This document shows, piece after piece, positions 51,162-64,000 of a stretch of 64,000 nt of DNA; within the stretch, counting starts at the first letter, position 1, and each line of letters starts with the position of its first letter. Origin of the DNA: Actinomycetospora cinnamomea (GTDB taxonomy: Bacteria > Actinomycetota > Actinomycetes > Mycobacteriales > Pseudonocardiaceae); NCBI RefSeq assembly GCF_003096675.1, contig NZ_QEKW01000004.1:1-64000 (forward strand), in the 5' to 3' direction. Position numbers and translations under genes: made by a program. The notes beneath the pieces are model-generated. The model was not told the DNA's origin, did not search any database, and saw only the letters and a list, made by a program, of their open reading frames with translations.

Positions 51162-51215
51162 TTGTTCGCGCAGGCCGTCACTCGACGCTCGTCCGCCATC
51201 GATGATCGACCCTGG

Positions 51216-51264
51216 CTCGTGTCACGAGGCGTGTGACGAGGCCCGATCAAGAACGTTTCGTTCT
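51216..51264. promoter_or_regulatory. Two dyads upstream of BMC-H gene
   Basis: CTCGTG-T-CACGAG (51216-51228) and AGAACG-TTT-CGTTCT (51250-51264) are perfect six-base-arm inverted repeats 136-184 bases upstream of the shell gene. A CTCGTG/CACGA dyad also occurs at the other BMC promoter (59936-59950). They are candidate operators for the PucR regulator. Confidence 0.45.
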
Positions 51265-51399
51265 GCCGCACCCGAGCCTGTCGCACGGACTATCCACGGG
51301 GACAAGGGCTCGGCATTCCGCTGTCCCTGCGGGCGATGGTCGATGGGCCGCCGCCGATGGAAGCTCGAGCATCGGACCGCGACGACGTGGGAGGACTCC

Positions 51400-51702
51400 G
51401 TGACCCAGCCTGGACGCGCCGGTGCGCTCGGCATGATCGAGACGCGGGGACTGGTCGGAGCCATCGAGGCCGCCGACGCGATGGTCAAGGCGGCCAACGT
51501 CGATGTGGAGGGCTACCGGACCCTGCGCAACGGCCAGGTGTCCGTGCTCGTGCGCGGGGACGTCGGCGCGGTGACTGCTGCTGTCGACGCCGGCAAGGTG
51601 GCCGCGGCTGCCGTGGGTGAGCTCTATGCGTCGCACATCATCCCGCGTCCGCACGGTGACACCGAGGGCATCGTCGACGCGGCTGTCTCCCACATCCGTT
51701 GA
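51400..51702 (+). CDS. BMC-H hexameric shell protein (first copy)
   Basis: A 100-residue single-BMC-domain protein that forms hexameric tiles of microcompartment facets. It has the fold's signature [29 protein letters not shown], the central [17 protein letters not shown] and the C-terminal [14 protein letters not shown]. The GTG at 51400 is preceded by GGGAGGAC. It is transcribed alone, converging on the PucR gene, away from the main BMC operon. It is about as similar to the BMC-H at 59101 as sister paralogues. Confidence 0.95.
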
Positions 51703-51708
51703 GCGGAC

Positions 51709-53805
51709 TCAAATCCCGTCGTTGTTGAGCTGCAGCAGACGGAGCGCGACATCGGCCCGCATGCGGTCGTCGTGTCGCGAGAGGTCGAGGCCGGTGAGCT
51801 GCTTGATGCGCTCGAGTCGGTAGCGCAGCGTCTTGTGGTGGACGAAGAGCTTCTCGGCGGCCACACGCTGGGAGCAATCGGCGTCGAAGAAGGCGCGAAG
51901 GGTGCGGACGAGTGCGCCGTCGTTCTCGCGGTCGTAGGCGACCAGCGGTCCGGTGACGTCGTCGACGAACGTCTGGAGGTCGGGATCGGAACCCGAGCCG
52001 AGGAGCAGGCGCACGACGCCGAGCTCCTCGTAGAGCGAGATGTTGCCCCCGCCCAGCCGGTGGGACGCCGAGAGCGCTGTCTGCGCCTCGTTGAAGGCGG
52101 CCGGTAGGGCGTCGACCTCGTCGTGCGGGCGGCTCACCCCCCACGAGGACCGCAGGTCGGACACTTCGCCCCGGGTGGCGTCGACCATGCGCTGGACGAG
52201 GTCCTTCGCAGCGGCCGAGTCGAGGGCTTCGGCGATCGCGACCACGAGGTCACCCCGGAGCGCGACCAATGCGAGCCGAGGCCCTTCCTCGCGGTCGCGA
52301 AGGGCGCGAACGACGTCGCGCCTCAGTCGGTCGGCGCGCGAGGTCTCCCAACCGTGCCGGGCCTCGAGCTCGTCCACGTTGTCGAGGTGGCCGTGGACGA
52401 CGCGCATCCGGCAGCCCAGCGACACGCCCATCTGCTGGGCCCGGGCTCGGGCCGCTGTCCGGTGCTCGGGCGGACCCTGGACGAGATCCCAGAGGACTTC
52501 GCTGAGCGCCTCGTGTCGTGCGCGGCTGGCAGCACGTTCACGGAGTAGCGACAGTGAGCAGGCCATGGCGACCTGGCCGACGACCGCGTCGAGCATCTCC
52601 TCGCCAGAGTTCTCCTCGTCCTCCGCTGGCAGGAGGCACACCCAGCCGACCTCGTCGCCGTCGGCGTAGACCGGTTGGAGTCGTGCGGCCGGCGACAGGC
52701 CGGCCGTGCGGCGCATGGTGCGGCCCTTGCCGGCCCGCACGGGGAGCTGACCGGGCACAGCGCCGCCGTGGACGGCGAGCGCCACCCCGGCGCCGTCGTA
52801 GATGCCGACCTGGCAGCCGAGCTGGGTCGCGACGCGTCGGGCGAGAGCGGGTAGCCCGCCGCCCTCGAGCACGGTCGTGAGCAGGGCGTGCTGCAGCTCG
52901 GCGGTCTGCCCGAGCACCCCGACCTGGTGCTTGAGCGCAGCGTGCGCCTTCTCGAGATCGGCGTTCACACGAACCTGTTCGTCGTGGAGGCGTGCGCTGC
53001 GCAGCGCGATAGTGGCGAAGTTCGCCAAGGTCACCATCCGGCGCACGTCCTGCTCGGTGAACACCGAGGGACGTCGGCGCCACACCTCCAGCACCCCGAG
53101 GAACTCCTCGGGCAACTGCAGCGGCACGGCCAGCGCGGACTCGGTCTGCTCACGCTCGGCGAGGCCGACGAAGTCGCGGCTGATGGTCTTGTCCTCGACA
53201 TAGCGATCGACCTTGGCCGGCCGTCCGGTCTCGAACACGAGCCCGGCGACACCCATCCCCCGCCGCATCCGCAGCCGTGCGGTGTCGATGACCCGGTGGC
53301 CGACGCACGAACGCATCGCGACCTCGTCGCCCTCGCGCAGGAGTACGCCGCAGATGTCGGCGTCGAGGAGCCCGAGGGTGCGCGTCGCGATGGAGAGCAG
53401 GAGCTGGTCGACGTCGTGGACGGAGAGCAAGCGCTCGACGACCTCGGTGACGATCACCGTCTCCTCGGCGGCGTCCTCCGCCGCGCGCACCGCGTCCTGA
53501 CAATCCATGGCGAGCGTCGCCCACACGCATGCCTGGCCGATCAGTGTGCGGGTCTCGTCGGAGGCGCGGGGGCACTCGATCGTCCACGACACCGCCACCC
53601 GCCCAGCCAGGACGGCGCGGCTGCCCGCCTGCGGCGCCACGCCATCGACCTCGACGGCGACCTCACCGCCGATCGCGGCGGACGCGGCATCCCGGAGCTC
53701 GGCGAGTGCGGCGTCGGCGGAGGTGGGCACTGTCGCGAGGAGGCTGCGCAACCGCTGGGCGCTCTCGGCCCGGTCATCGGCGCGGTCCGCGTCGACCGGC
53801 TTCAT
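51709..53805 (-). CDS. GAF/PucR-type transcriptional regulator
   Basis: A 698-residue regulator and the last gene of the BMC operon. The N-terminal part (to about residue 100) is unassigned. A GAF domain covers about 120-280 (VVERLLSVHDVDQLLLSIATRTLGLLDADICGVLL). A middle region of GAF-like or CdaR type follows, and the C-terminal PucR HTH_30 domain (about 625-690) has RTLRAFFDADCSQRVAAEKLFVHHKTLRYRLERIKQLTGLDL. PucR-type regulators are typical of actinobacterial BMC loci. It most likely senses the substrate or an intermediate and activates the operon. Confidence 0.93.
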   Translation of the reverse strand: MKPVDADRADDRAESAQRLRSLLATVPTSADAALAELRDAASAAIGGEVAVEVDGVAPQAGSRAVLAGRVAVSWTIECPRASDETRTLIGQACVWATLAMDCQDAVRAAEDAAEETVIVTEVVERLLSVHDVDQLLLSIATRTLGLLDADICGVLLREGDEVAMRSCVGHRVIDTARLRMRRGMGVAGLVFETGRPAKVDRYVEDKTISRDFVGLAEREQTESALAVPLQLPEEFLGVLEVWRRRPSVFTEQDVRRMVTLANFATIALRSARLHDEQVRVNADLEKAHAALKHQVGVLGQTAELQHALLTTVLEGGGLPALARRVATQLGCQVGIYDGAGVALAVHGGAVPGQLPVRAGKGRTMRRTAGLSPAARLQPVYADGDEVGWVCLLPAEDEENSGEEMLDAVVGQVAMACSLSLLRERAASRARHEALSEVLWDLVQGPPEHRTAARARAQQMGVSLGCRMRVVHGHLDNVDELEARHGWETSRADRLRRDVVRALRDREEGPRLALVALRGDLVVAIAEALDSAAAKDLVQRMVDATRGEVSDLRSSWGVSRPHDEVDALPAAFNEAQTALSASHRLGGGNISLYEELGVVRLLLGSGSDPDLQTFVDDVTGPLVAYDRENDGALVRTLRAFFDADCSQRVAAEKLFVHHKTLRYRLERIKQLTGLDLSRHDDRMRADVALRLLQLNNDGI

Positions 53806-53830
53806 CGGAACACCTCCGGGAACCGATCGC

Positions 53831-54865
53831 CTACGGGCGGATCAGCGTCTTGAGCGTAAGTCGCTCGGCGGTCCGGCGATACGCCTCGACGGCCCCGTCG
53901 AGACCGACCCGCTCCGTGGCGACCACGCTCGGGTCCAGCACCCCGGCGCGCACCAGAGCGAGGAGGGGTTCGGCGTCGCGCATGACGTCACCGATCGCAA
54001 AGGAGAAGGCGAGTTCGTCGGCGAAGGCCCGGCCGGCGGGCACCTCGATCGTCTCGCTCGGGACGCCGACCGAGGCGACGCGCCCGCGCCGGCGCACGAG
54101 ATCGAGCGCGAGGCCCAGGCCCCGCTCGCCGCCGACGGCGTCCACTACGACATCCGCGCCGCGGCCGTCCGTGGCCGCATCGACGACCTTGCGCGCCCGG
54201 TCGGGACTCGCGGCCACGGCGCCTTCCCGAGCGGCGATCTCCCGGCGGTCGGCCACCGGCTCCACCACGACGACGACACCCGCACCGATCGCCTGCGCCA
54301 CGAGGCTGGCGACCTGACCGACAGGTCCCCCGCCGAGGACGGCCACGGTCTCTCCCGGCTCGGTCCCCGCTCGTCGCAGCGCGGCGTAGCCGGTGGCCGC
54401 GGTGTCGCCGAGGAAGACGGCCGCATCGGCGTCGATGCCGGGAGGGAGCGCGACGAGAACCGTGTCGGCGTGCGGCACGCGCACCAGCTCTGCCTGCGCT
54501 CCGGCCAACGGCGGCCCGAACACCGTTCCGGTGCCGAAGAACCGACGATCGGAACACTGCCAGTGGTCGCCACGCCGGCACCACCAGCAGCGCCCGCAGG
54601 CGGTGTAGTCGGCGCCGACGACGAGGTCGCCCAGCGCGTGCTCGCGCACCTGGTCGCCACGCTCGACGACCTCGCCGACGAACTCGTGCCCGAGGACGAA
54701 CCCGCGCGGGAGCTGGTCGGGATGGGCGAGCACGTGCAGGTCGGTGCCGCACACCGCCGCCCGGCGCACACGCACGATCGCGTCGGTCGGAGAACACAAC
54801 CGCGGGTCGGCCACGTCCTCGACGCGGACCTGCCCGCGACCGGCGTGCACCACCGCCCTCACCAC
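53831..54865 (-). CDS. Zinc-dependent alcohol dehydrogenase
   Basis: A 344-residue medium-chain zinc alcohol dehydrogenase. Catalytic zinc ligands are Cys in AAVCGTDLHVL and His-Glu in VLGHEFVGEV. The structural zinc site is CGRCWWCRRGDHWQC. The Rossmann motif is VAVLGGGPVGQVASLVAQAIGAG. In a BMC operon it can reduce an aldehyde to its alcohol and regenerate NAD+ inside the shell, or oxidise the alcohol substrate. There is no obvious encapsulation extension. It sits between the MDH-like and PucR genes. Confidence 0.92.
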   Translation of the reverse strand: MVRAVVHAGRGQVRVEDVADPRLCSPTDAIVRVRRAAVCGTDLHVLAHPDQLPRGFVLGHEFVGEVVERGDQVREHALGDLVVGADYTACGRCWWCRRGDHWQCSDRRFFGTGTVFGPPLAGAQAELVRVPHADTVLVALPPGIDADAAVFLGDTAATGYAALRRAGTEPGETVAVLGGGPVGQVASLVAQAIGAGVVVVVEPVADRREIAAREGAVAASPDRARKVVDAATDGRGADVVVDAVGGERGLGLALDLVRRRGRVASVGVPSETIEVPAGRAFADELAFSFAIGDVMRDAEPLLALVRAGVLDPSVVATERVGLDGAVEAYRRTAERLTLKTLIRP

Positions 54866-54872
54866 GACCCCC

Positions 54873-56213
54873 TCATGACGCGGCAGCCATCGCCCCGAGG
54901 CGCTCGCGGATCCGCTCGCCGGCCGCCCGGAGCGCGGCGATCTCCTCGGGCGCCAGCGGGATCGTCACGATCTCGCGGAGCCCTGTGCGGCCGAGCCGGA
55001 CGGGCAGCCCGAGGTAGACGTCCCGGATGCCGTAGGAACCATCAGCGAGCACGGCGGCCGACATCACCTCGTCGCTCTCGCGGACCATCGCGAGCACCAT
55101 CCGCGCCGCGGACATGCCCGGCGCCATGAATGCGCTGCCGGTCTTGAGGAGGCCGACCACCTCGGCCCCGGAGCCGCGAGCCCGGTCCACCACGGCGTTG
55201 AGGCGCGCCGGAGGCACGACCTGCGCCAGGGAGGAGCCTTCGTGGGAGGCGCGCGAGAGCGGAATGACCATCTCTTCCCCGTGGCTACCCAGCGCGATCG
55301 CGTCGACCGATCGCGGGCGGACGGAGCCCTCCACCCCGATCAGGGCCTGGAACCGCGCGGTGTCGAGGACCCCGGCCATGCCCAGCACCCGCGAGGAGGG
55401 GAAGCCCGAGGACGTCCAGGCGTGCTGGGTCATCTCGTCGAGAGGGTTGGTGACGACGACGATCACGGCCTGCGGCGAGGTGGCGGCCACGCGGCGTGCA
55501 ACGTCCCCGACGATCCCCGCGTTGGTGCTGACGAGGTCCGCACGTGTCATCCCCGGTTGCCGGGCCCTGCCGGCGGTGACGACGACGTAGTCCGCGGAGC
55601 CGGCCTCCTCCACGGTGCCCACGCCCCGGACGCGGGTGGTGAAGTCGGAGAGCGGAGCGGTGTGCTGGAGGTCGAGGGCGATGCCGGCCGCCCGTCCCTC
55701 GTCGATGTCGACCAGCACGACCTCGTCGAAGAGGTCGGCGTCGGCCAGGCGCATCCCGGCGACCATGCCGACGTGGCCGGCACCGACGACGACCACGCGT
55801 CCGGTGCGTCGGGGACCGTCGTCGAGCCCGGCGGGCAGGGGCGCACCCCGTCGAAACAGCGCCGGGGACGGCGGCCGCATGGCCCGCACCGGCCCGCCCG
55901 TCCCCGGCGAGCCGACCGAGGGCGGGAGCAGGGGCGTCGCCGGCGAGGGAGCCGGCGAGAGGGGAGCGTTGGGCCGGGCCCCGGCGGTCGTCACCGACGT
56001 GGTCGTGCCTGGCGACCGGTCCGTGGTCCCCGACGACATCGGCAGGGCGGACGCTGGCGGCCGGTCGAGGGCGTCGGCGGACGTGACGGCGACACCGAGC
56101 TCCTGGGCGCGGTCGCGTGCGAGCGGGGTGACGAGGTCGCCCGGAGCGACGCGGAGCGCGACCCCGCGAGCCGCGGCGGCCTCGACGTCGGCCGTGCCCC
56201 ACACGGCGGTCAC
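54873..56213 (-). CDS. BMC-linked malate-dehydrogenase-like enzyme with long N-terminal extension
   Basis: A 446-residue protein. The NAD-binding LDH/MDH domain starts near residue 137 ([31 protein letters not shown]). The active-site loop is GRARQPGMTRADLVSTN, where Arg precedes Gln-Pro-Gly-Met, as in malate-type rather than lactate-type enzymes, and the catalytic His is in ALGSHGEEMVIPLS. The first 50 residues form an independent block (AAARGVALRVAPGDLVTPLARDRAQELGVAV) resembling the LTPxARD block seen at the start of several BMC enzymes such as EutT; it is joined to the enzyme by about 85 residues of Pro/Ser/Thr-rich linker. This looks like a targeting or scaffold segment. It starts at GTG 56213, overlapping the BMC-T stop. 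Confidence 0.9.
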   Translation of the reverse strand: MTAVWGTADVEAAAARGVALRVAPGDLVTPLARDRAQELGVAVTSADALDRPPASALPMSSGTTDRSPGTTTSVTTAGARPNAPLSPAPSPATPLLPPSVGSPGTGGPVRAMRPPSPALFRRGAPLPAGLDDGPRRTGRVVVVGAGHVGMVAGMRLADADLFDEVVLVDIDEGRAAGIALDLQHTAPLSDFTTRVRGVGTVEEAGSADYVVVTAGRARQPGMTRADLVSTNAGIVGDVARRVAATSPQAVIVVVTNPLDEMTQHAWTSSGFPSSRVLGMAGVLDTARFQALIGVEGSVRPRSVDAIALGSHGEEMVIPLSRASHEGSSLAQVVPPARLNAVVDRARGSGAEVVGLLKTGSAFMAPGMSAARMVLAMVRESDEVMSAAVLADGSYGIRDVYLGLPVRLGRTGLREIVTIPLAPEEIAALRAAGERIRERLGAMAAAS

Positions 56214-56842
56214 CGCTCCTGACCTTTCATCTCCTCGAGCGCGGCGACCGCGGCGTCACGCGCGGACTGCACCTCGCTCTCGGTGCCCGAGAGGAACATC
56301 CGGCCGAAGCGGCCGACCGCGCGCAGCTCGATGACGGTGATCGACGCCGCCTTCTCGGCCTCGTTCGCGGCGACGGAGATGTAGGCGGCCGGCGCGACCT
56401 CCATGATGAACAGGCTCTGCCCCGGCATGAGCATGCTGCCCTTGCGCCACTTGTTGAGCAGCTGCGCCTGGTAGGGGTGCACGTTGGTGATGAACTGGGT
56501 CGACGCGATCGTCGGCCGGATGCGGTCGGTCTCGACCAGGCCGAACTCGTCGAGGATCGCCTGCCCCGAGGCGAGCACCTCGGCCTGCTGCTCGGAATGG
56601 ATCTCCAGCAGGCCGAACTCACGCTCGATGATCTGCAGCGCAGGACGGACACCCGCGGCCTTGAGCGCGATGTCGGCGGCACGGAACACCTCGTTGCCGG
56701 GCGCCATCTCGATGTAGAGCTCGGCCATGCCGGCGATCGGCACGTCGCCGGGGCTGGTCGCGGCGATGTGCGCGGCACACTGCGGCTGCATGCGATCGAC
56801 GAAGGCGTAGGTCCGCAGGGACGGAGCGTTCGCTGACGTCAT
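56210..56842 (-). CDS. BMC-T shell protein (tandem BMC domains)
   Basis: A 210-residue protein with two BMC domains in tandem, which forms pseudohexameric trimers in the shell. The first domain runs about residues 33-110 (VPIAGMAELYIEMAPGNEVFRAADIALKAAGVRPALQIIER) and the second about 135-205 (GQSLFIMEVAPAAYISVAANEAEKAASI, with LRAVGRFGRMFLSGTESEV). Trimeric tiles of this type often have gated pores for larger molecules or cofactors. It overlaps the EutJ-like gene upstream and the MDH-like gene downstream in ATGA/GTGA junctions. Confidence 0.92.
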   Translation of the reverse strand: MTSANAPSLRTYAFVDRMQPQCAAHIAATSPGDVPIAGMAELYIEMAPGNEVFRAADIALKAAGVRPALQIIEREFGLLEIHSEQQAEVLASGQAILDEFGLVETDRIRPTIASTQFITNVHPYQAQLLNKWRKGSMLMPGQSLFIMEVAPAAYISVAANEAEKAASITVIELRAVGRFGRMFLSGTESEVQSARDAAVAALEEMKGQER

Positions 56843-57648
56843 GGCGCAGACCTCGCGATCCCGAGGGGGGTGATGAGCAGGGCGTGCGGGTGGGTCACGA
56901 CGGTCCTCTGCAGGTACTGCGCCAGTACGTCGCCGGCGCGGGGGAGCATGAGGGCGCCGCCCGCCAGGTGCAGCGGGAGGTCGGCGTCCGTGCCCCGGGT
57001 CATGGCGCGGATCGACTCCGCGATGCGGTGCAGGCCGGGGGTGAGGATCGGGAGGGCCTCACCGGGCCGCTCTCGTTTGAACTGCTCGGCCTCGCTGACG
57101 TCGACGCCCAGCGCGCCGGCCACGACGAGGTCGAGGTGGTGCCCGCCGCCGGGGCGATCATCGAGGCGCTCGAGGCGTCCGTCGCGGAAGACCCCGACGC
57201 CGGTGGAGCCGCCGCCGACGTCGATCACCACGCCGTCGGTGATCTCGAGGGTGCGTTGCGCCGCGGTGACCTCGTCGACGAGCGCGACGTCCCGGAAGCC
57301 GGCCGTCTCGCAGACGTAGGTGCAGGCCCGGGCGTCAGCGGCGGGGATGCAGGGTGGGTAGGCGGTGGCGGCGCTCGTGAGCTCGATCCCGAGGGCGTCC
57401 ACCGCGCGCTCGCGCAGCTCGCGCACCGTGGCCGCCGCCCGGGCGAAGTCGACGACCACGCCGTCTTGCAGTGCGCCCGAGCCGGCGGACTCGACCCACA
57501 CCGGCCGCTCGTCGTCCAGCACGACGAGCACACAGCTGGCCGTCCCGAGGTCGACTCCGACACGAGGCCGGGCCGGTGTGCCGTTCGGCGGCTTCCCGAC
57601 CCTGTCCGCCGCCGCGGCGAGCAGGGCCTGCGGATCCCCGCCCGCCAC
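56839..57648 (-). CDS. EutJ-like actin/Hsp70-fold protein
   Basis: A 269-residue protein of the EutJ family, an ATPase-fold protein common in BMC loci and thought to be a chaperone for enzymes or shell assembly. The phosphate motifs are VGVDLGTASCVLVVLDDERPVW, GVVIDVGGGSTGVGVF and LHLAGGALMLPR. The start is uncertain: GTG 57648 follows the aldehyde dehydrogenase stop, while an ATG at 57687 would overlap it by 34 bases. A direct function has not been shown for most homologues. Confidence 0.9.
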   Translation of the reverse strand: MAGGDPQALLAAAADRVGKPPNGTPARPRVGVDLGTASCVLVVLDDERPVWVESAGSGALQDGVVVDFARAAATVRELRERAVDALGIELTSAATAYPPCIPAADARACTYVCETAGFRDVALVDEVTAAQRTLEITDGVVIDVGGGSTGVGVFRDGRLERLDDRPGGGHHLDLVVAGALGVDVSEAEQFKRERPGEALPILTPGLHRIAESIRAMTRGTDADLPLHLAGGALMLPRAGDVLAQYLQRTVVTHPHALLITPLGIARSAP

Positions 57649-57653
57649 CGCGC

Positions 57654-59060
57654 TCAGACCTCGACGCTGTCGTAGACGCTGCGCCATGGCCGGACCTCGT
57701 GGGCGACTCTCTTGATGTTGATTAGGTGCAGGGGCGTGACGTTGTCCGAGCAGATGGATCCGCTCCACGTCCCGGTACCGAGCTGAAAGGACGGGTCGAC
57801 GTCGGTCGAGTAGCCCATCCCGCCGAACAGAGCGGGAGTGTTGACCACGATGCGTCCCGCGGGGAGTGCTGCGAACGGGGCGAGCTCCGCAGGGTCGGCG
57901 GCGTGCACCGCCGTGGTGTGCCCCTCCCCGCCGAGCGCGAGGATCTCCCGGCATCGAGCGAGGCCGGCCTGCGGGTCACGGGCGCGGTAGACCGACAGCA
58001 CCGGGCCGAGGATCTCCCGCGAGAGCGGGGTCGTCTCACCGACGGTGTCGAGCTCGCAGGCCAGCACGCGGGTCGAGTCTGGCACCCCGAACCCGGCGAG
58101 CGCCGCGAGGCGGTGCGCGCTCTGCCCGACGCTCGCGGGGCGCAGTGCCCCGCGGTCGTCGAAGAGGACGTCGACCAGGGCCGCCTGCTGGGCGGCGTCC
58201 ATCCAGTGCGCGCCGCGCTCCTCGAACGCCCGCAGGAAGTCCCCGGCCACCGCCTCCGCGACCACCACCGACTGCTCGGCCACGCAGGCCGTGCCGTTGT
58301 CGAAGGACTTCGAGGTGATGATCATCTCCGCTGCCTCGGCGGCGTCGGACACGCTGGCGCCCACGTAGGCCGGCACGTTGCCCGCGCCCACCGCGATCGT
58401 CGGCTTGCCGCTGGAGTACGCGGCGCTCACCATGCCCGGCCCACCCGTCGCGAGGACGAGCGCGACCTCGTCGCGACGCATCAGCTCCCGGGTGGCCGCG
58501 AGCGTCGGCGACTCCAGGCAGGAGACGACGCCCTCCGGGGCACCGGCCGCCGCCTCTGCCATGATCTCCGCCGCCCGCAGCGTGCAGCGCGCCGCTCGGG
58601 GGTGCGGAGCGTGCACGACGGCATTGCCCGACTTCACCGCGGCGAGGCTCTTGAAGAGCGCCGTCGAAGTGGGGTTGGTGACGGGGATGATCCCGGCGAT
58701 CACGCCCATGGGGCTGCCGATGGCGGTGACGCGGGAAGCCTCGTCGGTCCACAGCACACCGACGGCACGGCGCTCGAGCATCCATCGGGCGACGAAACCG
58801 GTGTTGTACCGGTTCTTGTAGATCTTGTGTTCGTAGACCCCGTAGCCCGTCTCGTCCACGGCCAGCCTTGCCAGCTCGTCGGCGGCCTTCGTCCCGGCCC
58901 GCGCCATGGCCCGGACGTAGCTGTCCAGGGTCTCCTGGTCGACGCCCTCCAGCCGGCGGACGGCCTCGCGCGCCGCCCGGGCTTTCGCGCGGACGTCCGC
59001 CAGGCCGGCGAGGTCCGCGTCGAGTCCTCCCGACGGCCCCCGGTCCAGGGTCGCGGTCAT
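57654..59060 (-). CDS. CoA-acylating aldehyde dehydrogenase (EutE/PduP type)
   Basis: A 468-residue BMC aldehyde dehydrogenase that converts an aldehyde with CoA and NAD+ to acyl-CoA. The catalytic Cys is in SFDNGTACVAEQSVVV near residue 248, and the Rossmann region has TGGPGMVSAAYSSGKPTIAVGAGNVPAYV, as in EutE/PduP. The opening has ADVRAKARAAREAVRRLEGVDQ, usual for BMC members. The C-terminus (VRPWRSVYDSVEV) could be a short tail. Aldehyde chain length cannot be predicted. ATG 59060 is chosen (MTATLDRGP). Confidence 0.95.
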   Translation of the reverse strand: MTATLDRGPSGGLDADLAGLADVRAKARAAREAVRRLEGVDQETLDSYVRAMARAGTKAADELARLAVDETGYGVYEHKIYKNRYNTGFVARWMLERRAVGVLWTDEASRVTAIGSPMGVIAGIIPVTNPTSTALFKSLAAVKSGNAVVHAPHPRAARCTLRAAEIMAEAAAGAPEGVVSCLESPTLAATRELMRRDEVALVLATGGPGMVSAAYSSGKPTIAVGAGNVPAYVGASVSDAAEAAEMIITSKSFDNGTACVAEQSVVVAEAVAGDFLRAFEERGAHWMDAAQQAALVDVLFDDRGALRPASVGQSAHRLAALAGFGVPDSTRVLACELDTVGETTPLSREILGPVLSVYRARDPQAGLARCREILALGGEGHTTAVHAADPAELAPFAALPAGRIVVNTPALFGGMGYSTDVDPSFQLGTGTWSGSICSDNVTPLHLINIKRVAHEVRPWRSVYDSVEV

Positions 59061-59100
59061 CTCCCCACCTCTCTCGGTGCTCGGTCCGTGGTGCCGGCGA

Positions 59101-59442
59101 TCAGCCCTTCGGACGCGCGAGGACGGTGAGGATGCCTTCGGTCTCGTCGTGCGGACGGGGGATGACGTGGACCGAGACGACCTCGCCCGCCTTGCCGGCG
59201 GCGACGGCACCGGCATCGGTGGCGGCCTTTACCGCACCCACGTCGCCGCGCACCATCACGGTCACGAGACCCCCGCCGATCTCGCGGTGGCCGAGGACCT
59301 GGACGTTCGCCGCCTTGACCATCGCGTCGGCCGCCTCGATCGCGCCCACGAGACCCTTCGTCTCGATGAGCCCTAGAGCGCCGCGCATCGCGACCGCGCC
59401 GTTCGTGCTCGACCCGGCGGGGGTGGTCGCCGTGGTTGCCAT
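59101..59442 (-). CDS. BMC-H hexameric shell protein (second copy)
   Basis: A 113-residue single-domain shell protein with a short Ala/Thr-rich start, followed by [49 protein letters not shown] and [17 protein letters not shown]. Together with the copy at 51400 it provides two different hexamers; the pore-region sequences differ slightly, so the pores may admit different molecules. It is the second gene of the operon. Confidence 0.95.
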
Positions 59443-59477
59443 GTCGTCCTCCGTGTCTCTGCTGGGTCCGGGCGGCG

Positions 59478-59762
59478 TCAGGCCGTACGGGAGCTGGCGG
59501 TGCCGTTGCGGATGACCGAGTCGGCGATGGCGACGACGGCCCGGTCGGTCGGTGAGTCGGAGCCGGCGGCGACCCGGGCGGCGCTACCGGTCGTCACCAG
59601 GACGACGTCGCCCTCACCGGCCCCGATGAGGTCGACCGCGACGCACGTCGGACCGACCCAGCCCTCCTCGGTCGTGTCCTGGACGAGCAGGAGGGAGACG
59701 TTGTCGAAGCCCGGTGAGCGCACCGTGGCCACGACCTGGCCCACCACGCGACCGAGCAGCAT
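59478..59762 (-). CDS. BMC-P pentameric vertex protein (EutN/CcmL family)
   Basis: A 94-residue EutN/CcmL-fold protein that caps shell vertices: [28 protein letters not shown], then [23 protein letters not shown] and the C-terminal [14 protein letters not shown], with all conserved regions present. The ATG at 59762 follows a GGGGAGG site. It is the promoter-proximal gene of the BMC operon, consistent with low copy need but early expression. Confidence 0.95.
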
Positions 59763-59979
59763 CCCGGCGCCTCCCCGCGACCCCGTCGTCCTCACGAGCC
59801 TGTGAGCCAGGTCTCGTACTGTGGATCGGACGCTAGGGCGCGGAGTGGGTAGCGGCCTTATCCCTCCTGGACAACATCGGCGGCCTCCGCTGTCCCGGGT
59901 CACCCTGGCTCGAGCCGTGGCGACCGCGGACGCTTCTCGTGATCCACGACACAACCGTGCCGCGCTCTGGAGGTCATCG
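59763..59979. promoter_or_regulatory. Divergent BMC promoter region
   Basis: A 217-base gap between the BMC operon and the divergent DUF7064-type gene. It contains TCGTG-ATC-CACGA (59937-59949), a relative of the dyad near the other BMC-H promoter. It would be the main control point of both operons. Confidence 0.6.
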
Positions 59980-60957
59980 GTGATCCGCGACGAGGACGCC
60001 CAGTTCCACCCGCCGACCAGCGACGACCCGCTGTGGGCGGAGACCAACTACTTCGGCCTGTACGCGGGGCAGGACACCGAGCGGCCGCTCAACATCGGGC
60101 TCTACGCGCTGCACCGCAAGATGATCGGCATGGTCGGCACCACGGTGTCGATCAACTCTCGGCGGGTCCGCGAGCCGTGGGCCGCCGAGTACTGGGACTC
60201 CCAGAACCTGCCGGCGCCCGACAGCCTGCTCGACTACGAATTGCTCAACGGCCTCAAGGTGGTGTGCACGAAGCCGAACCAGGTCTGGGACGTCGACTAC
60301 TCCGACCCGACGGCGGGCGTGGAGATCCACTTCCGCTACACCGCGATCATGCCGGCCTACGACATCAATGATCCCGAACAGGACCCGCTCGCCGCAGACC
60401 GGGACATGGCCAAGACGTGGGGCCACGCCTACGCCGGGCACTTCGACCAGTCCGGCCGCTACGAGGGCGAGGTGTCGGTGCGGGGCCGCACCCTGCCGAT
60501 CGACTGCGTCGCCACGATGGACCACAGCTGGGGTGTGCGCGCCGAGCGCCAGACCTCTCGCCTGTCCTGGATGCACGCCCATTTCGGCGAGGACCTCGTC
60601 GTCCACGGTCTGTTCGACTTCGACACGAGGAACGGCCCCGACGGCCAATCGCCGCTGCGCCTGACGCACGGCTACCTCGTCGAGGGCGGTCAGATGCACG
60701 GCCTCTCGGAGGGTCACGGCCTCACCCGACGGCGCGGGCTCTACCCCGAGCGCATCGAGATCGAGGTGAGCGCTGGCGACCGGTCGATCGCGGTCTCCGG
60801 CGACGCGCTCACGACGTTCCCGTGGCTCTCCCAGCCCGGCGTGGTCGGGCACAACGTGCTGCTGCGCTGGACGAACGACCGGGACGACCGGGCTGGGTTC
60901 GGCGAGTGCATGGACTTCATCGGTCTCGGTGAGCTCGGGGAGATCAACAGCCGATGA
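59980..60957 (+). CDS. DUF7064/7065-type (CrtC/AttH-like lipocalin) protein
   Basis: A 325-residue cytoplasmic beta-rich protein. It shows the fingerprint MDHSWGVRAERQTSRLSWMHAHFGEDLVVHGLFDFDT of the AttH/CrtC-like lipocalin-fold group, now often split as DUF7064/7065. Carotenoid hydratases share this fold, but the DUF7064 relatives have no established reaction. GTG 59980 follows a GGAGG site. It is divergent from the BMC operon and coupled to the HAD gene by an ATGA overlap, so it probably serves the same pathway. Confidence 0.8.
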   Translation: MIRDEDAQFHPPTSDDPLWAETNYFGLYAGQDTERPLNIGLYALHRKMIGMVGTTVSINSRRVREPWAAEYWDSQNLPAPDSLLDYELLNGLKVVCTKPNQVWDVDYSDPTAGVEIHFRYTAIMPAYDINDPEQDPLAADRDMAKTWGHAYAGHFDQSGRYEGEVSVRGRTLPIDCVATMDHSWGVRAERQTSRLSWMHAHFGEDLVVHGLFDFDTRNGPDGQSPLRLTHGYLVEGGQMHGLSEGHGLTRRRGLYPERIEIEVSAGDRSIAVSGDALTTFPWLSQPGVVGHNVLLRWTNDRDDRAGFGECMDFIGLGELGEINSR

Positions 60958-61955
60958 CAGGACCGGTACGGGCGGTCATCTTCGACCTGGACGGAACACT
61001 CGTCCAGACACGGGTCGCATCGTGGGAGGTCTTCGAACCGATCAGCCGACGCCACGGGCTCGGTGTCGAGACGCCGGCACAGTACTTCGAGCTCTTCCGC
61101 GGCAACGTCTTCACCTCGATCCGCGGGCTGTGCTCCGACGACGAGCAGGCCTGGGCCGCCACCGCGGACTTCCTGGCCGCTCTGCGCGCGTACTACGCCC
61201 CTCCCCTCGTACCCGGCATGCACGCCGTGGTCCGGCGCCTGGCGTCGGTGTGCACGCTCGCGGTGATGTCGTCGAACGCGATGGAGGTTCTGCGCCGGGT
61301 CCTCGTCGAGAACGAGCTGGCGTACTGCTTCGCCCATGTCTTCGGCGGCGACGTGGCTCCGGACAAGCGCGCCGCGCTCCGCGCCTTCCTTGCCGATGCC
61401 GGCAGCGGCTACGGCCGACGGTGCTCGGCCGACTACGACGAGGCGAGCGAGGCCGAGCGCCCCGACCCGTCGACGACGGTGCTGGTGACCGACACCGCCG
61501 GTGACGTCCGCGACGCCCGAGAGGTCGGGGTCCGCGTGGTCGGTGTGACATGGGGGATGCACTCGGCCGACGAGCTGGCCGAGGCCGGAGCCGAGTTCGT
61601 CGCACTGTGGCCGCAGGAAGTGCTGTCCCACCTGCTCGGCGACGACGCCGCCCGCGGACCGACCGGCGCCTGCGCCGTGCCGGGCGCGGCCGTCTCAGCG
61701 CCGAGCGCCGGCGCGGCGGGCTGTGGGTGCGGATGCACGGGCGCGGCGTCCCGCCGCTCCGGCACCACGGGCGAGGAGCCCGGGGAGCGGCGACGCCGTC
61801 GTCGACGGGAGGCGGTCGCGACAGCTCTCCCTCCGGCCATCGCCGTGGAGAGCCCCGCGGGCCAGGACCACACCGACGGGAACCACACCAACGGCCGCCA
61901 CCCCGTCGCGTCCGACGACGTGCTCGAGGCGATGCGCCGCATCTGCCGTGGCTGA
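60954..61955 (+). CDS. HAD-family hydrolase with long C-terminal tail
   Basis: A 333-residue protein. Residues about 1-220 form a HAD phosphatase: nucleophile motif VIFDLDGTLVQTR, motif II VMSSN, motif III with AFGGDVAPDK-like FGGDVAPDKRAAL, and VLVTDTAGDVRDARE as motif IV. It has a helical cap after motif I. The last 110 residues are not part of the fold: a Cys-rich GCGCGC segment, a poly-Arg stretch, a His/Asn/Gly linker and a final amphipathic helix-like SDDVLEAMRRICRG. That is the layout of enzymes with C-terminal encapsulation peptides. It overlaps the DUF7064-type gene. Confidence 0.88.
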   Translation: MTGPVRAVIFDLDGTLVQTRVASWEVFEPISRRHGLGVETPAQYFELFRGNVFTSIRGLCSDDEQAWAATADFLAALRAYYAPPLVPGMHAVVRRLASVCTLAVMSSNAMEVLRRVLVENELAYCFAHVFGGDVAPDKRAALRAFLADAGSGYGRRCSADYDEASEAERPDPSTTVLVTDTAGDVRDAREVGVRVVGVTWGMHSADELAEAGAEFVALWPQEVLSHLLGDDAARGPTGACAVPGAAVSAPSAGAAGCGCGCTGAASRRSGTTGEEPGERRRRRRREAVATALPPAIAVESPAGQDHTDGNHTNGRHPVASDDVLEAMRRICRG

Positions 61956-62671
61956 CTCCCCGAAGCAACGCTCAACTTCCGCGACCTCGGCGGCCTCCCG
62001 GCAGGCACGGGCTGCCGGACCCGAGCCGGTGTGCTCTTCCGCAGCGACACGCTCCAGGCCCTCACCGAGGCCGACGTCGCCCTGCTCGTCGAGCGCATCG
62101 GCCTCGAGGCCGTCATCGACCTAAGTGTCGGGCCCGAAGCCGTCGAGCAGGGTCGCGGACCGCTGGTGACCCGCGACGTCACCTACCTCAACGCCCCACT
62201 GCGCAAGGCCGAGCCGAACGACGAGCCGCCCGCACGACAGGCGCTGTGGTTCTCCCTCCAGCACCTCGGAGCGCCGACCTCGGTCCTGGGGGGTGTCCGG
62301 GCGGCGGCCGCGTTCGCCGGCCTGCCGACGGTGGTGCACTGCGCCGCCGGCAAGGACCGCACCGGCCTCGTCGTCGCGCTGCTGCTCGCCCTCGCCGGGG
62401 TCGAGCGCGACGCCATCGGCGCGGACTACCTCCCCAGCGGACCCCACATGGAGGCGGTCATGATGCGGTTCGCGACCTGGCCGCGCTACCGCGCGCACAT
62501 GGCGACCGTGGCGCCCCAAGATGTCCATGGCCCACGAGTCGACGGTGCATGGCGGGCACGACGTGCTCGACGAACGGTTCGGCGGTGCGCCGGGTCTGGG
62601 CGATGACCCGCGGGATCGACGCCGCCCTGTTGGCACGCTTTCCGGAGCTCCTCACCGAGCCCACCGACTGA
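61948..62671 (+). pseudogene. Frameshifted Y_phosphatase3-type protein tyrosine phosphatase
   Basis: Pieces of one gene lie in three frames. The expected start GTG 61948 (VADSP) is out of frame with the NFRDLGGLPAGTGCRTRAGVLFRSD block at 61968; one extra C near 61958-61961 would join them. The catalytic VHCAAGKDRTG is at about 62334. Near 62515 the frame changes to HESTVHGGHDVLDERFGG, and near 62580-62600 it changes again to VWAMTRGIDAALLARFPELLTEPTD, ending at 62671. The catalytic loop is intact, but a full protein cannot be made. Sequence errors in a G+C-rich region are an alternative. Confidence 0.7.
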
Positions 62672-62683
62672 CCAGGACCGATC

Positions 62684-64000
62684 TCACCCGGCGAGCGCCG
62701 CCCGCCCCAGTCCCAACAGCAGCGGGCGGACCTCGGGGAGGTCGACCGCGAAGCGGCGGAAGCCGAGGCCGTACAGCGTCGCCGCGACCTGGTCGGCGAC
62801 CGTTCCGCTCAGTCGCACGCCCGTATCCGCGGGCACGTCACGCAGCAGGTGGACCACCACGGGATCGAGCTCGTGGCGCGGGTCGACGGCGAGCAACCCG
62901 CGAGCGAGGTAGGAGTCCAGGGGCTCAGCGGTGAGGAACTGCCGGGCCGGGATGCCGAACATCGCCGCCTGGAGCGCGCGGACCTCCAACCAGACCACGC
63001 CACTGTGGGCCGCGAGCTCGGCCGCTCCCAGGACCGCACGAGGGCTCGTCAGGTAGGTGCCGACGGCCGGGGCGTCGGCGCCCTCGTCGAGGGCGGCGAG
63101 GGCCTGCGCCTCGGCCGGATCGGAGACATGGCGTACGGCGAGACGCAGACGGCCGCCGTACCCGGCGTCGCCGGCGGCGCGGACGAGCCCTTCGCGCTGC
63201 GCGCGGATCAGATCGGGAACCCCGAGGGGCAGCGCGAGCTCGGGGTGCCTGGTCGTGACCGCCGTCTGCTGGAGCAGTTCGCGGGACTCGTCGGCGAGCA
63301 GGTCGATCGCCCGGACGTCGACGTCCCGCACCTCGGCTGCCCGCGCCGCCACGAGCAGGGGCGCGAAGTGCTCGGCCACCGCGTCGCGCATCTCGGACAG
63401 CGCGCCGACGCCGTTGAGACTCTTCTCCAGGAGCGTCTCGACGAGGCGGTTGAGGTCACCTGATGCGGCGAGAACGTCGTCGATCGCGGTCACCAGGCCG
63501 GTCGCTCCGGCAGCACACGCGGCTTCGACGTCGGCTGGCAACGTCACCCGGGCCAGGACCTCGCTGCCGGCGGCGTCGGCGGCCGCGGCCAGCAGGGTGT
63601 CCATCGCCTCGTTCGCGGCGGCCGGCGTGGTCGTCGGCAAGGCTCCCGCGAAGAGCTCCCCCGACCCGCCGTCGAGCGACACCGGGTCGCCCTCGGACAG
63701 GACCCGGTTCCCGATCCGGACCGTGCGCGCCGCTTCGTCGATCTCGAGGTCGGCCGCACCGACCACGCAGGCGGTGCCGAGCGCACGAGCGACCACCGCG
63801 GCGTGGCTCGTCGAGCCGCCGGTGGCGGTGACGATGCCGGCAGCCGCGATCATCCCGTGGAGGTCCGCAGGACTGGTCACCGAACGCCCGAGGACGACCG
63901 ATGCGCCGGCGTCGGCCCGCTTGCGGGCGCGGTCCGGGTCCAGCACGAGCTCACCGGAGACCTGCCCGGGGCAGGCGCCGATGCCGGTGAGCAGCACCTG
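62684..64000 (-). CDS. PEP-utilizing-enzyme-like protein (PPDK/PEP synthase-type), partial at right edge
   Basis: The open frame extends beyond the window; 438 residues are visible. The first 120 contain the PEP-utilizing mobile domain: ATGGSTSHAAVVARALGTACVVG, in which His is the phosphorylated residue. The remainder resembles a TIM barrel but lacks the strong GLCRTEHMF-like and catalytic CGE motifs of pyruvate phosphate dikinase, so the C-terminal part is degenerate or specialised. In PPDK/PEP synthase this domain links ATP to pyruvate. It converges on the phosphatase pseudogene and may be regulated with the BMC region. Confidence 0.75.
   Translation of the reverse strand, partial: QVLLTGIGACPGQVSGELVLDPDRARKRADAGASVVLGRSVTSPADLHGMIAAAGIVTATGGSTSHAAVVARALGTACVVGAADLEIDEAARTVRIGNRVLSEGDPVSLDGGSGELFAGALPTTTPAAANEAMDTLLAAAADAAGSEVLARVTLPADVEAACAAGATGLVTAIDDVLAASGDLNRLVETLLEKSLNGVGALSEMRDAVAEHFAPLLVAARAAEVRDVDVRAIDLLADESRELLQQTAVTTRHPELALPLGVPDLIRAQREGLVRAAGDAGYGGRLRLAVRHVSDPAEAQALAALDEGADAPAVGTYLTSPRAVLGAAELAAHSGVVWLEVRALQAAMFGIPARQFLTAEPLDSYLARGLLAVDPRHELDPVVVHLLRDVPADTGVRLSGTVADQVAATLYGLGFRRFAVDLPEVRPLLLGLGRAALAG

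Follow-up and report, generated by a model that had tools for sequence, protein, structure and literature searches.

Which enzyme supplies the aldehyde to a microcompartment whose locus encodes shell proteins and an aldehyde dehydrogenase (AldDH) and no classical signature enzyme is the question raised by the locus described here. It lies in the window, by which we mean the whole 64,000-bp stretch that was analysed; this is the start (bases 1-64000) of contig C4 in a draft genome of 5.97 Mb. The locus fits a metabolosome of type MIC1, and we propose, with a probability of about 0.4, that its aldehyde is formed by ATP-dependent dehydration through a PPDK-derived kinase and a lyase of the DUF7064 family.

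The features of the locus are collected in Table 1. The preliminary description had recognised two BMC-H, one BMC-T, a BMC-P, an EutJ-like protein, an AldDH, a Zn-ADH, an MDH-type enzyme with an N-terminal extension, a PucR regulator and a divergent DUF7064-HAD operon, and Pfam and NCBIfam searches confirm all of these. BMC-P, BMC-H2, AldDH, EutJ-like, BMC-T, MDH, Zn-ADH and PucR all lie on the minus strand, neighbouring genes being separated by -4 to 40 bp, and therefore look like one operon; BMC-H1 is convergent with PucR, and DUF7064-HAD is divergent from BMC-P. The shell predicted from these genes consists of two BMC-H proteins, one BMC-Tdp-like trimer and BMC-P. The only BMC-T of the locus has CcmP (4ht5, E 1.6e-60) as its best PDB match, and the EutJ-like protein exceeds the cut-offs of PRK15080 (270 bits, cut-off 182) and TIGR02529 (207 bits, cut-off 152).

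Table 1. Features of the microcompartment locus and its right flank. Starts of the scanned open reading frames were too long (BMC-H1 51202-51702, AldDH 57654-59216, BMC-P 59478-60047, DUF7064 59821-60957, Zn-ADH 53831-54865); those of DUF7064, AldDH and BMC-H1 given below come from our own codon-usage caller.
Feature	Position	Strand	Basis or remark
BMC-H1 shell hexamer protein	51400..51702	+	Pfam BMC 1.2e-27; KAAN and PRPH facet motifs
PucR regulator, GAF/GGDEF-like/PucR HTH_30	51709..53805	-	Pfam; last operon gene
Zn-dependent medium-chain alcohol/polyol dehydrogenase (Zn-ADH)	53831..54853	-	Pfam ADH_N/ADH_zinc_N
MDH-type enzyme, N-terminal domain and proline-rich linker	54873..56213	-	Ldh_1_N/C; domain starts at residue 139
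BMC-T, CcmP/BMC-Tdp-like trimer	56210..56842	-	Pfam BMC covers the second half of BMC-T; PDB 4ht5
EutJ-like MreB/DnaK-fold protein, start codon uncertain	56839..57651	-	MreB_Mbl; NCBIfam PRK15080, TIGR02529
CoA-acylating AldDH	57654..59060	-	Pfam Aldedh, NCBIfam, PDB 5j78
BMC-H2 shell hexamer protein	59101..59442	-	Pfam BMC; KAAN and PRPH motifs
BMC-P shell pentamer protein	59478..59762	-	EutN_CcmL 1.2e-22; first operon gene
DUF7064 protein, AttH/CrtC-like fold, candidate phosphate-eliminating lyase	59980..60957	+	Pfam, structure model, profile
HAD phosphatase, amphipathic helix at the C-terminus after a long variable linker	60954..61955	+	HAD PF00702
Tyrosine-phosphatase-family gene (cluster c13)	62031..62606	+	Y_phosphatase3 in a relative
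c9, C-terminal part, PPDK-derived phosphotransferase	62684..64000	-	Gene extends to C4:65176
c11	C4:65173-65793, beyond window		After c9
c12, split by IS3-like element	C4:65878-66744 and 68024-68593		After c11
c14, PEP-utilizer mobile domain, frameshifted in assembly	C4 about 68680-69097		After c12

By gene content, the locus fits MIC1, a catalogued type, as far as its published descriptions go. The passages on MIC1 in Axen 2014 (PMC4207490) list an AldDH, enzymes of the L/MDH and Zn-dehydrogenase pfams, a hydrolase, a phosphatase and an MreB-like protein, without a phosphotransacylase (PTAC) or signature enzyme, and ask which of L/MDH and Zn-dehydrogenase recycles NAD; those in Larsson 2017 (PMC5853799) give MIC1 one CcmP homologue and no phosphotransacylase. 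Correspondingly, the present locus has an AldDH without PTAC, Ldh_1_N/Ldh_1_C and ADH_N/ADH_zinc_N enzymes, a single CcmP-like BMC-T, a HAD hydrolase (PF00702), a Y_phosphatase3-family gene in a shorter copy and an MreB_Mbl/EutJ protein. The wording of those passages in Axen 2014 may imply one dehydrogenase more, and none was seen in the window. In the parts of Sutter 2021 (PMC8217296) that concern these types, MIC2-7 and others are without an obvious signature enzyme, and the BMC-Tdp proteins of MIC1 and MIC2 are among the uncharacterised types. In the texts consulted we found no experimental characterisation of MIC1, and no naming of its substrate or signature enzyme since 2014. The preliminary description had taken the locus for an actinobacterial BMC type, and it is indeed an actinobacterial metabolosome with an AldDH, but the type had already been described: a known type with the same MDH gene, which that description had itself named as speaking against its proposal, is largely what the MIC1 passages of Axen 2014 present.

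Searches for the aldehyde-producing enzyme gave negative results for the classical candidates. Among 30 Pfam-scanned open reading frames, only three of which lie left of 51.2 kb, there is no PTAC, diol dehydratase, ethanolamine lyase, glycyl radical enzyme, class III aminotransferase or aldolase. PduL-type PTAC (PF06130), the one PTAC family searched genome-wide, was found in none of four genomes with this locus. The locus itself contains no canonical EUT/PDU/GRM signature (EutBC, diol dehydratase or glycyl radical enzyme), no RMM-type APH phosphotransferase with aminotransferase (its BMC-T is one, not two), no class II aldolase of the PVM type and no LigB dioxygenases of the ARO type, which this genome carries in another locus. 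The earlier statement that no signature enzyme is visible holds for the classical enzymes and for PTAC, but it passed over a candidate system and may be wrong, since the DUF7064 protein, which resembles a phosphate-eliminating lyase, and a PPDK-derived operon together make up a candidate signature system. The advice to look rightwards past the window led to no known signature enzyme among the scanned frames but to this operon, whose c9 gene starts at 62684.

A classical enzyme encoded elsewhere might nevertheless feed the shell. Cytosolic ethanolamine ammonia-lyase or B12 diol dehydratase would then provide acetaldehyde or propionaldehyde, and DUF7064 and the PPDK-derived operon would be peripheral or have another role. 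The genome does encode EutB, at C3:206399, and the large subunit of a diol dehydratase, at C2:48090, both away from the locus, and the AldDH resembles acetylating acetaldehyde dehydrogenases: its sequence is of the CoA-acylating type with acetaldehyde dehydrogenases nearest, its PDB match being 5j78, acetaldehyde dehydrogenase (acetylating), at E 6e-110, and its best NCBIfam models PRK13805 (473 bits) and TIGR02518 (463 bits), both under their cut-offs (951 and 620). However, EutB occurs in three and diol dehydratase in two of the four genomes with the locus, never near it, whereas DUF7064-HAD and c9 are linked to the locus far more tightly. We therefore consider such an outside supply unlikely, if worth bearing in mind.

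The tightness of this linkage is seen in the relatives. A BMC-T scan of our contig collection gave 51 loci, of which we counted the 36 (L046-L081) with a BMC-T identity of at least 79%; L055 and L065, both among these, share one genome, and the other 15 loci belong to Chloroflexota, Verrucomicrobiota, Acidimicrobiia, Roseovarius and Nocardioides. The hosts of the 36 are Actinomycetospora, Pseudonocardia, Amycolatopsis, Prauserella, Nocardia, Rhodococcus, Gordonia, Williamsia, Millisia, Kineosporia, Microbacteriaceae and unplaced Actinomycetota MAGs, and in a tree of AldDHs from the fetched loci that of the window is placed among those of Actinomycetospora. BMC-T, BMC-H, BMC-P, AldDH, DUF7064 and HAD are present in all 36 loci (one HAD and two BMC-P by tblastn only, with which missing HAD, BMC-P and ADH genes were rechecked), the EutJ-like protein in 35, MDH in 34, PucR in 32, c9 in 32, and Zn-ADH in 33 by our own gene caller or 35 with tblastn. 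Since the same gene order recurs in the 36 relatives, it is not due to chance. Three of the four loci without c9 (L046, L061, L074) stop at contig ends, and the fourth (L069) has none within its flanks. In 27 loci the c9 gene is found to the left of the DUF7064-HAD operon and in five on the far side of PucR, and its retention in two different positions speaks more for a functional link than for inheritance alone. The examined stretch, its edges included, lacks c12 in 8/36 loci and c14 in 29/36. Among 397 genomes of the order, strong c12 matches (E < 1e-100) occur in four, the same four that have a BMC-T 81-100% identical, and weak relatives in four more. The c13 gene is found at 17/36 loci and is assigned through a relative (L057:4231-4971) that matches PF13350 at 5e-57; with 191 aa against about 245 in relatives, it is possibly frameshifted here.

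Our alignments suggest that c9 may work like a PPDK-type phosphotransferase, although it is not filed as PPDK. The c9 relative in L053 matches PPDK up to residue 567; it passes the short NCBIfam model PRK05878 (PPDK; 500 against a cut-off of 456) and fails the full-length TIGR01828 (546 against 843). With a PPDK-like protein of the same genome as reference, the residues that we take to be the phospho-His and the ATP-site Arg of PPDK are kept in all 31 full-length copies, and those presumed to be the Arg, Asn and Cys of the PEP/pyruvate site are replaced in all 31, including the copy of the window's genome. The c14 product is a small PEP-utilizer mobile domain with GAPESH in seven of eight copies, the eighth being the copy of the window's genome, which looks frameshifted in the assembly. 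The c12 protein (477 aa) has a mean column identity of 85% across 12 copies. Searches of Pfam, NCBIfam and PDB gave nothing significant for it, and structure comparison gave no match either; because it has no recognised relative, the role assigned to it below is a guess. Related c12-c14 pairs also occur at places where no adjacent BMC gene was seen. In nine genomes with c12 relatives, c12 was never found beside DUF7064 outside BMC loci (DUF7064 occurs in four of them, elsewhere), several of the contigs being so short that close DUF7064 neighbours can be missed; BMC-T is absent from the four of these genomes that were searched for it. Clearly, the kinase module is not tied to DUF7064 elsewhere, and the case for the pairing is built on the 32 microcompartment loci. 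In the present strain, c12 is split at C4:66742-68026 by a 1285-bp IS3-like element (HTH_21 and rve) with 26-bp terminal repeats and a 3-bp target duplication. In the 12 aligned relatives c12 runs without interruption, one of these copies being truncated where its stretch begins. With this insertion and the apparent frameshift of c14, the kinase-lyase system may be dead in this strain.

The second component, the DUF7064 protein, is a candidate phosphate-eliminating lyase. It matches Pfam DUF7064 at 33.9 bits (cut-off 24.7) and DUF7065 at 25.5 bits, under the cut-off of 27. Its structure model (pLDDT 91) has the 25-phosphosteroid lyase (25-PSL) as best structure match, and an AttH-like protein, Diels-Alderases and kievitone hydratase score nearly equal Z, so that in the model the AttH/CrtC fold alone does not separate a lyase from a hydratase or cyclase. 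A DUF7064 family profile searched against PDB ranks 25-phosphosteroid lyase first (E 1.7e-9), with RDxSWGxR in common, and also matches kievitone hydratase (3e-7). When the profile is built from only the 20 DUF7064 proteins of BMC loci, 25-PSL is not recovered from PDB at E 1; it is by way of the wider DUF7064 family, to which the window's protein is 15-25% identical, that the two are linked in sequence. This protein combines a predicted AttH/CrtC-type fold with the Asp of the RDxSWGxR motif, and its MDHSWGxR motif with Asp181 is invariant in all 20 aligned DUF7064 proteins. DUF7064 is above cut-off in 11 of 60 genomes of the class, with 26 genes besides that of the window, and at least 18 of these have a kinase or PEP-utilizer domain no more than 3 kb away (APH at least 11, PEP-utilizer 7), where about 5% would be expected from a density estimate over three genomes, not a permutation. 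The count used 71 PEP-utilizer matches outside the window's genome and, for APH, the 39 listed in three genomes (G786, G805, G820) plus the nearest one in six others, so that the APH count is a lower bound. None of the 26 genes is near both APH and PEP-utilizer among the matches listed, and three of the 11 APH cases are single proteins in which an EcKL/APH kinase is followed by DUF7065 and DUF7064. By analogy, this neighbourhood fits a kinase acting with a phosphate-eliminating lyase, as for 25-hydroxysteroids, and if our proposal is right, the family likely has a general role as phosphate-eliminating partner of kinases.

Taken together, we suggest the following route. In the PPDK-derived complex, the c9 protein would be the phospho-His donor that is charged by ATP and c14 a second carrier of phospho-His, with c12 probably providing the acceptor-substrate domain and c11 acting as accessory subunit. 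This complex would phosphorylate an alcohol, the simplest case being a 1,2-diol that receives the phosphate on its more substituted hydroxyl. The DUF7064 lyase would then eliminate phosphate by means of the Asp of MDHSWG, giving an enol and from it the aldehyde, which AldDH would convert to acyl-CoA within the shell. Because no PTAC is present, acyl-CoA would leave by the gated BMC-Tdp pore, and NADH would be reoxidised by MDH (oxaloacetate to malate) and/or Zn-ADH. The HAD phosphatase would clear stray phosphoesters. Tentatively, then, MIC1 would have a signature system of a new kind, a multi-protein PPDK-derived phosphotransferase with a DUF7064 lyase, B12- and radical-free and with MDH replacing a fermentative ADH, whose alcohol is probably a 1,2-diol and perhaps carries a tertiary hydroxyl.

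A DLVTPLAR-type N-terminal domain followed by a linker before the Rossmann fold is found by pattern match in 35 of 37 MDH family members, and this extension probably serves targeting (family counts of 37 take in the window, plus L094 for HAD and L088 and L094 for MDH). Arg is present at position 102, which we take to be the LDH/MDH specificity site where Arg separates malate from lactate dehydrogenases, in 36/37, as are the active-site Asp, Arg and His. The MDH looks like cargo that could recycle NADH, as the preliminary description had proposed, but the idea is not new and was raised by Axen 2014. For Zn-ADH, the best NCBIfam model is scyllo-inosose 3-dehydrogenase (157 bits, not reaching the cut-off of 450). 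At the C-terminus of the HAD, a low-complexity linker leads into an amphipathic helix resembling an encapsulation peptide (pattern match in 29/37), with a mean maximal hydrophobic moment of 0.60 against a mean of 0.22 in linker windows, a rough contrast because a maximum is set against a mean. Judged by sequence, the MDH and HAD extensions are of the cargo-targeting kind, and no encapsulation peptide is obvious at either end of AldDH or was seen on the DUF7064 protein.

This C-terminal helix also favours another explanation, that the encapsulated HAD is itself the signature enzyme, which would remove the phosphate from a phospho-aldehyde (such as a compound resembling glycolaldehyde phosphate) within the shell and hand the aldehyde to AldDH. 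Its presence in all 36 relatives and in a Chloroflexota locus (L094) that keeps the core and HAD, with no DUF7064 in the 15 kb examined, points the same way, as does a phosphoglycolate phosphatase model as best NCBIfam match; that match, however, is far under its cut-off (38 against 225 bits). Phosphonoacetaldehyde hydrolase has the motif DxAGT, and the DxDGT pattern of the HAD (36/37) speaks against this activity. Y_phosphatase3 and SurE are also in the operon at some loci, and such further phosphatases fit a housekeeping of phosphoesters, so that we find a signature role for the HAD improbable. We judge it similarly improbable that there is no dedicated signature enzyme and that the shell takes up aldehydes from many cytosolic routes (P450, SDR, ADH), a possibility considered for RMM/MIC and left open in the relevant passages of Axen 2014 (PMC4207490). 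Some Pseudonocardia loci are accompanied by a second Zn-ADH next to a Fis/AAA-type regulator, and beside L064 there are genes for AldDH and P450 and one related to an SDR gene, as a general aldehyde-processing shell might have, but the conservation of the DUF7064-HAD pair and of the c9 operon speaks for a specific step.

Comparison with known systems places the proposed kinase-lyase route as follows. With MIC1 the locus shares the gene content given above, and the main-text descriptions of MIC1 that we drew on do not mention a DUF7064 lyase or PPDK-derived operon. Judging from the passages concerned, RMM/AAUM of Rhodococcus and Mycobacterium is likewise actinobacterial, with BMC-Tdp shell proteins and no PTAC, but has two CcmP homologues (PMC5853799) against one CcmP-like protein here, and an aminotransferase that, with a phosphotransferase, is linked to an amino alcohol (Axen 2014, PMC4207490); the candidate pair here is a PPDK-derived phosphotransferase and an AttH/CrtC-fold protein. 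The PVM compartment for fucose and rhamnose also has an L/MDH-family enzyme proposed for NAD recycling, but its signature enzyme is a class II aldolase, none of which was found in the window's locus. The ARO microcompartment, for which this genome has a further BMC locus (at about 358-366 kb on C3), is actinobacterial and here too accompanied by PPDK_N and PEP-utilizer proteins, but it has LigB dioxygenases, two BMC-H and one BMC-P, and neither BMC-T nor DUF7064. For 25-hydroxysteroids, the relevant parts of PMC8449060, PMC7411048 and PMC11061730 give a scheme of kinase and phosphate elimination in which the lyase is called putative or unknown, its name coming from PDB entries. This system of Sterolibacterium denitrificans resembles ours in ATP-dependent dehydration and in the match of the DUF7064 profile to the lyase; as far as those parts describe it, it differs in acting on tertiary steroid alcohols with a ternary-complex kinase and no microcompartment, 25-PSL converting a tertiary sterol phosphate to an alkene. 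Most noteworthy in the present locus is the neighbourhood of kinase and lyase genes kept in its relatives, a candidate signature system that we hold to be correct at somewhat under even odds. The DUF7064 protein and the PPDK-derived operon offer a concrete, testable candidate for the aldehyde source of MIC1, and if it holds, metabolosomes would gain an ATP-dependent, oxygen-tolerant and cofactor-free route from alcohols to aldehydes, which would suit aerobic soil actinobacteria.

The core of the MIC1-type microcompartment locus is found on a Chloroflexota contig (L094) as HAD, BMC-P, BMC-H, AldDH, EutJ, BMC-T, MDH and Zn-ADH, and no DUF7064 gene was found in the 15-kb stretch of this contig that the analysis covered. 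In four Pseudonocardia loci (L050, L049, L052 and L059), a Fis/AAA-type regulator lies to the right of BMC-H1, the shell hexamer gene converging on the PucR regulator gene, and a second Zn-ADH is called on that side in three of them.

The reduced length of the window's tyrosine-phosphatase-family gene, in the DUF7064-HAD operon, possibly reflects a frameshift. Gene calling places a SurE-like gene in 6 of the 36 closely related loci, in four of them within the DUF7064-HAD operon. Three loci (L111, L113 and L114) encode an EcKL/APH kinase and DUF7065-DUF7064 fused in one protein, making these proteins candidate self-contained kinase-lyases. To the right of the window, the IS3-like element in c12, a gene of the PPDK-derived phosphotransferase operon, has perfect 26-bp ends and a 3-bp target duplication.

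Features and their locations
Feature	Location	Description
ARO-type locus	C3 about 358-366 kb	two LigB proteins, two BMC-H, one BMC-P, YjgF, HAD, hydrolase
IS3-like element	C4:66742-68026 (L007:6742-8026)	interrupts c12
Tyrosine-phosphatase-family gene	window 62031-62606	191 aa vs about 245 aa in relatives
SurE-like gene inside operon	L074, L075, L078, L079	gene call

The same genome carries a second microcompartment locus, of the ARO type (L009, L010), which also includes a PPDK_N and PEP-utilizer pair; the main text of the ARO paper mentions neither dikinase nor phosphoenolpyruvate. Microcompartment loci of Nocardioides and Roseovarius (L087 and L088) have a related BMC-T and AldDH. In both, BMC-H and AldDH are separated by an opine-dehydrogenase-like enzyme, and DAO-type flavoenzymes are encoded nearby; L088 additionally has a glutamine synthetase-like gene, and its MDH carries the same N-terminal domain as the window-type MDH. 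These two loci perhaps represent an amine-degrading microcompartment type.
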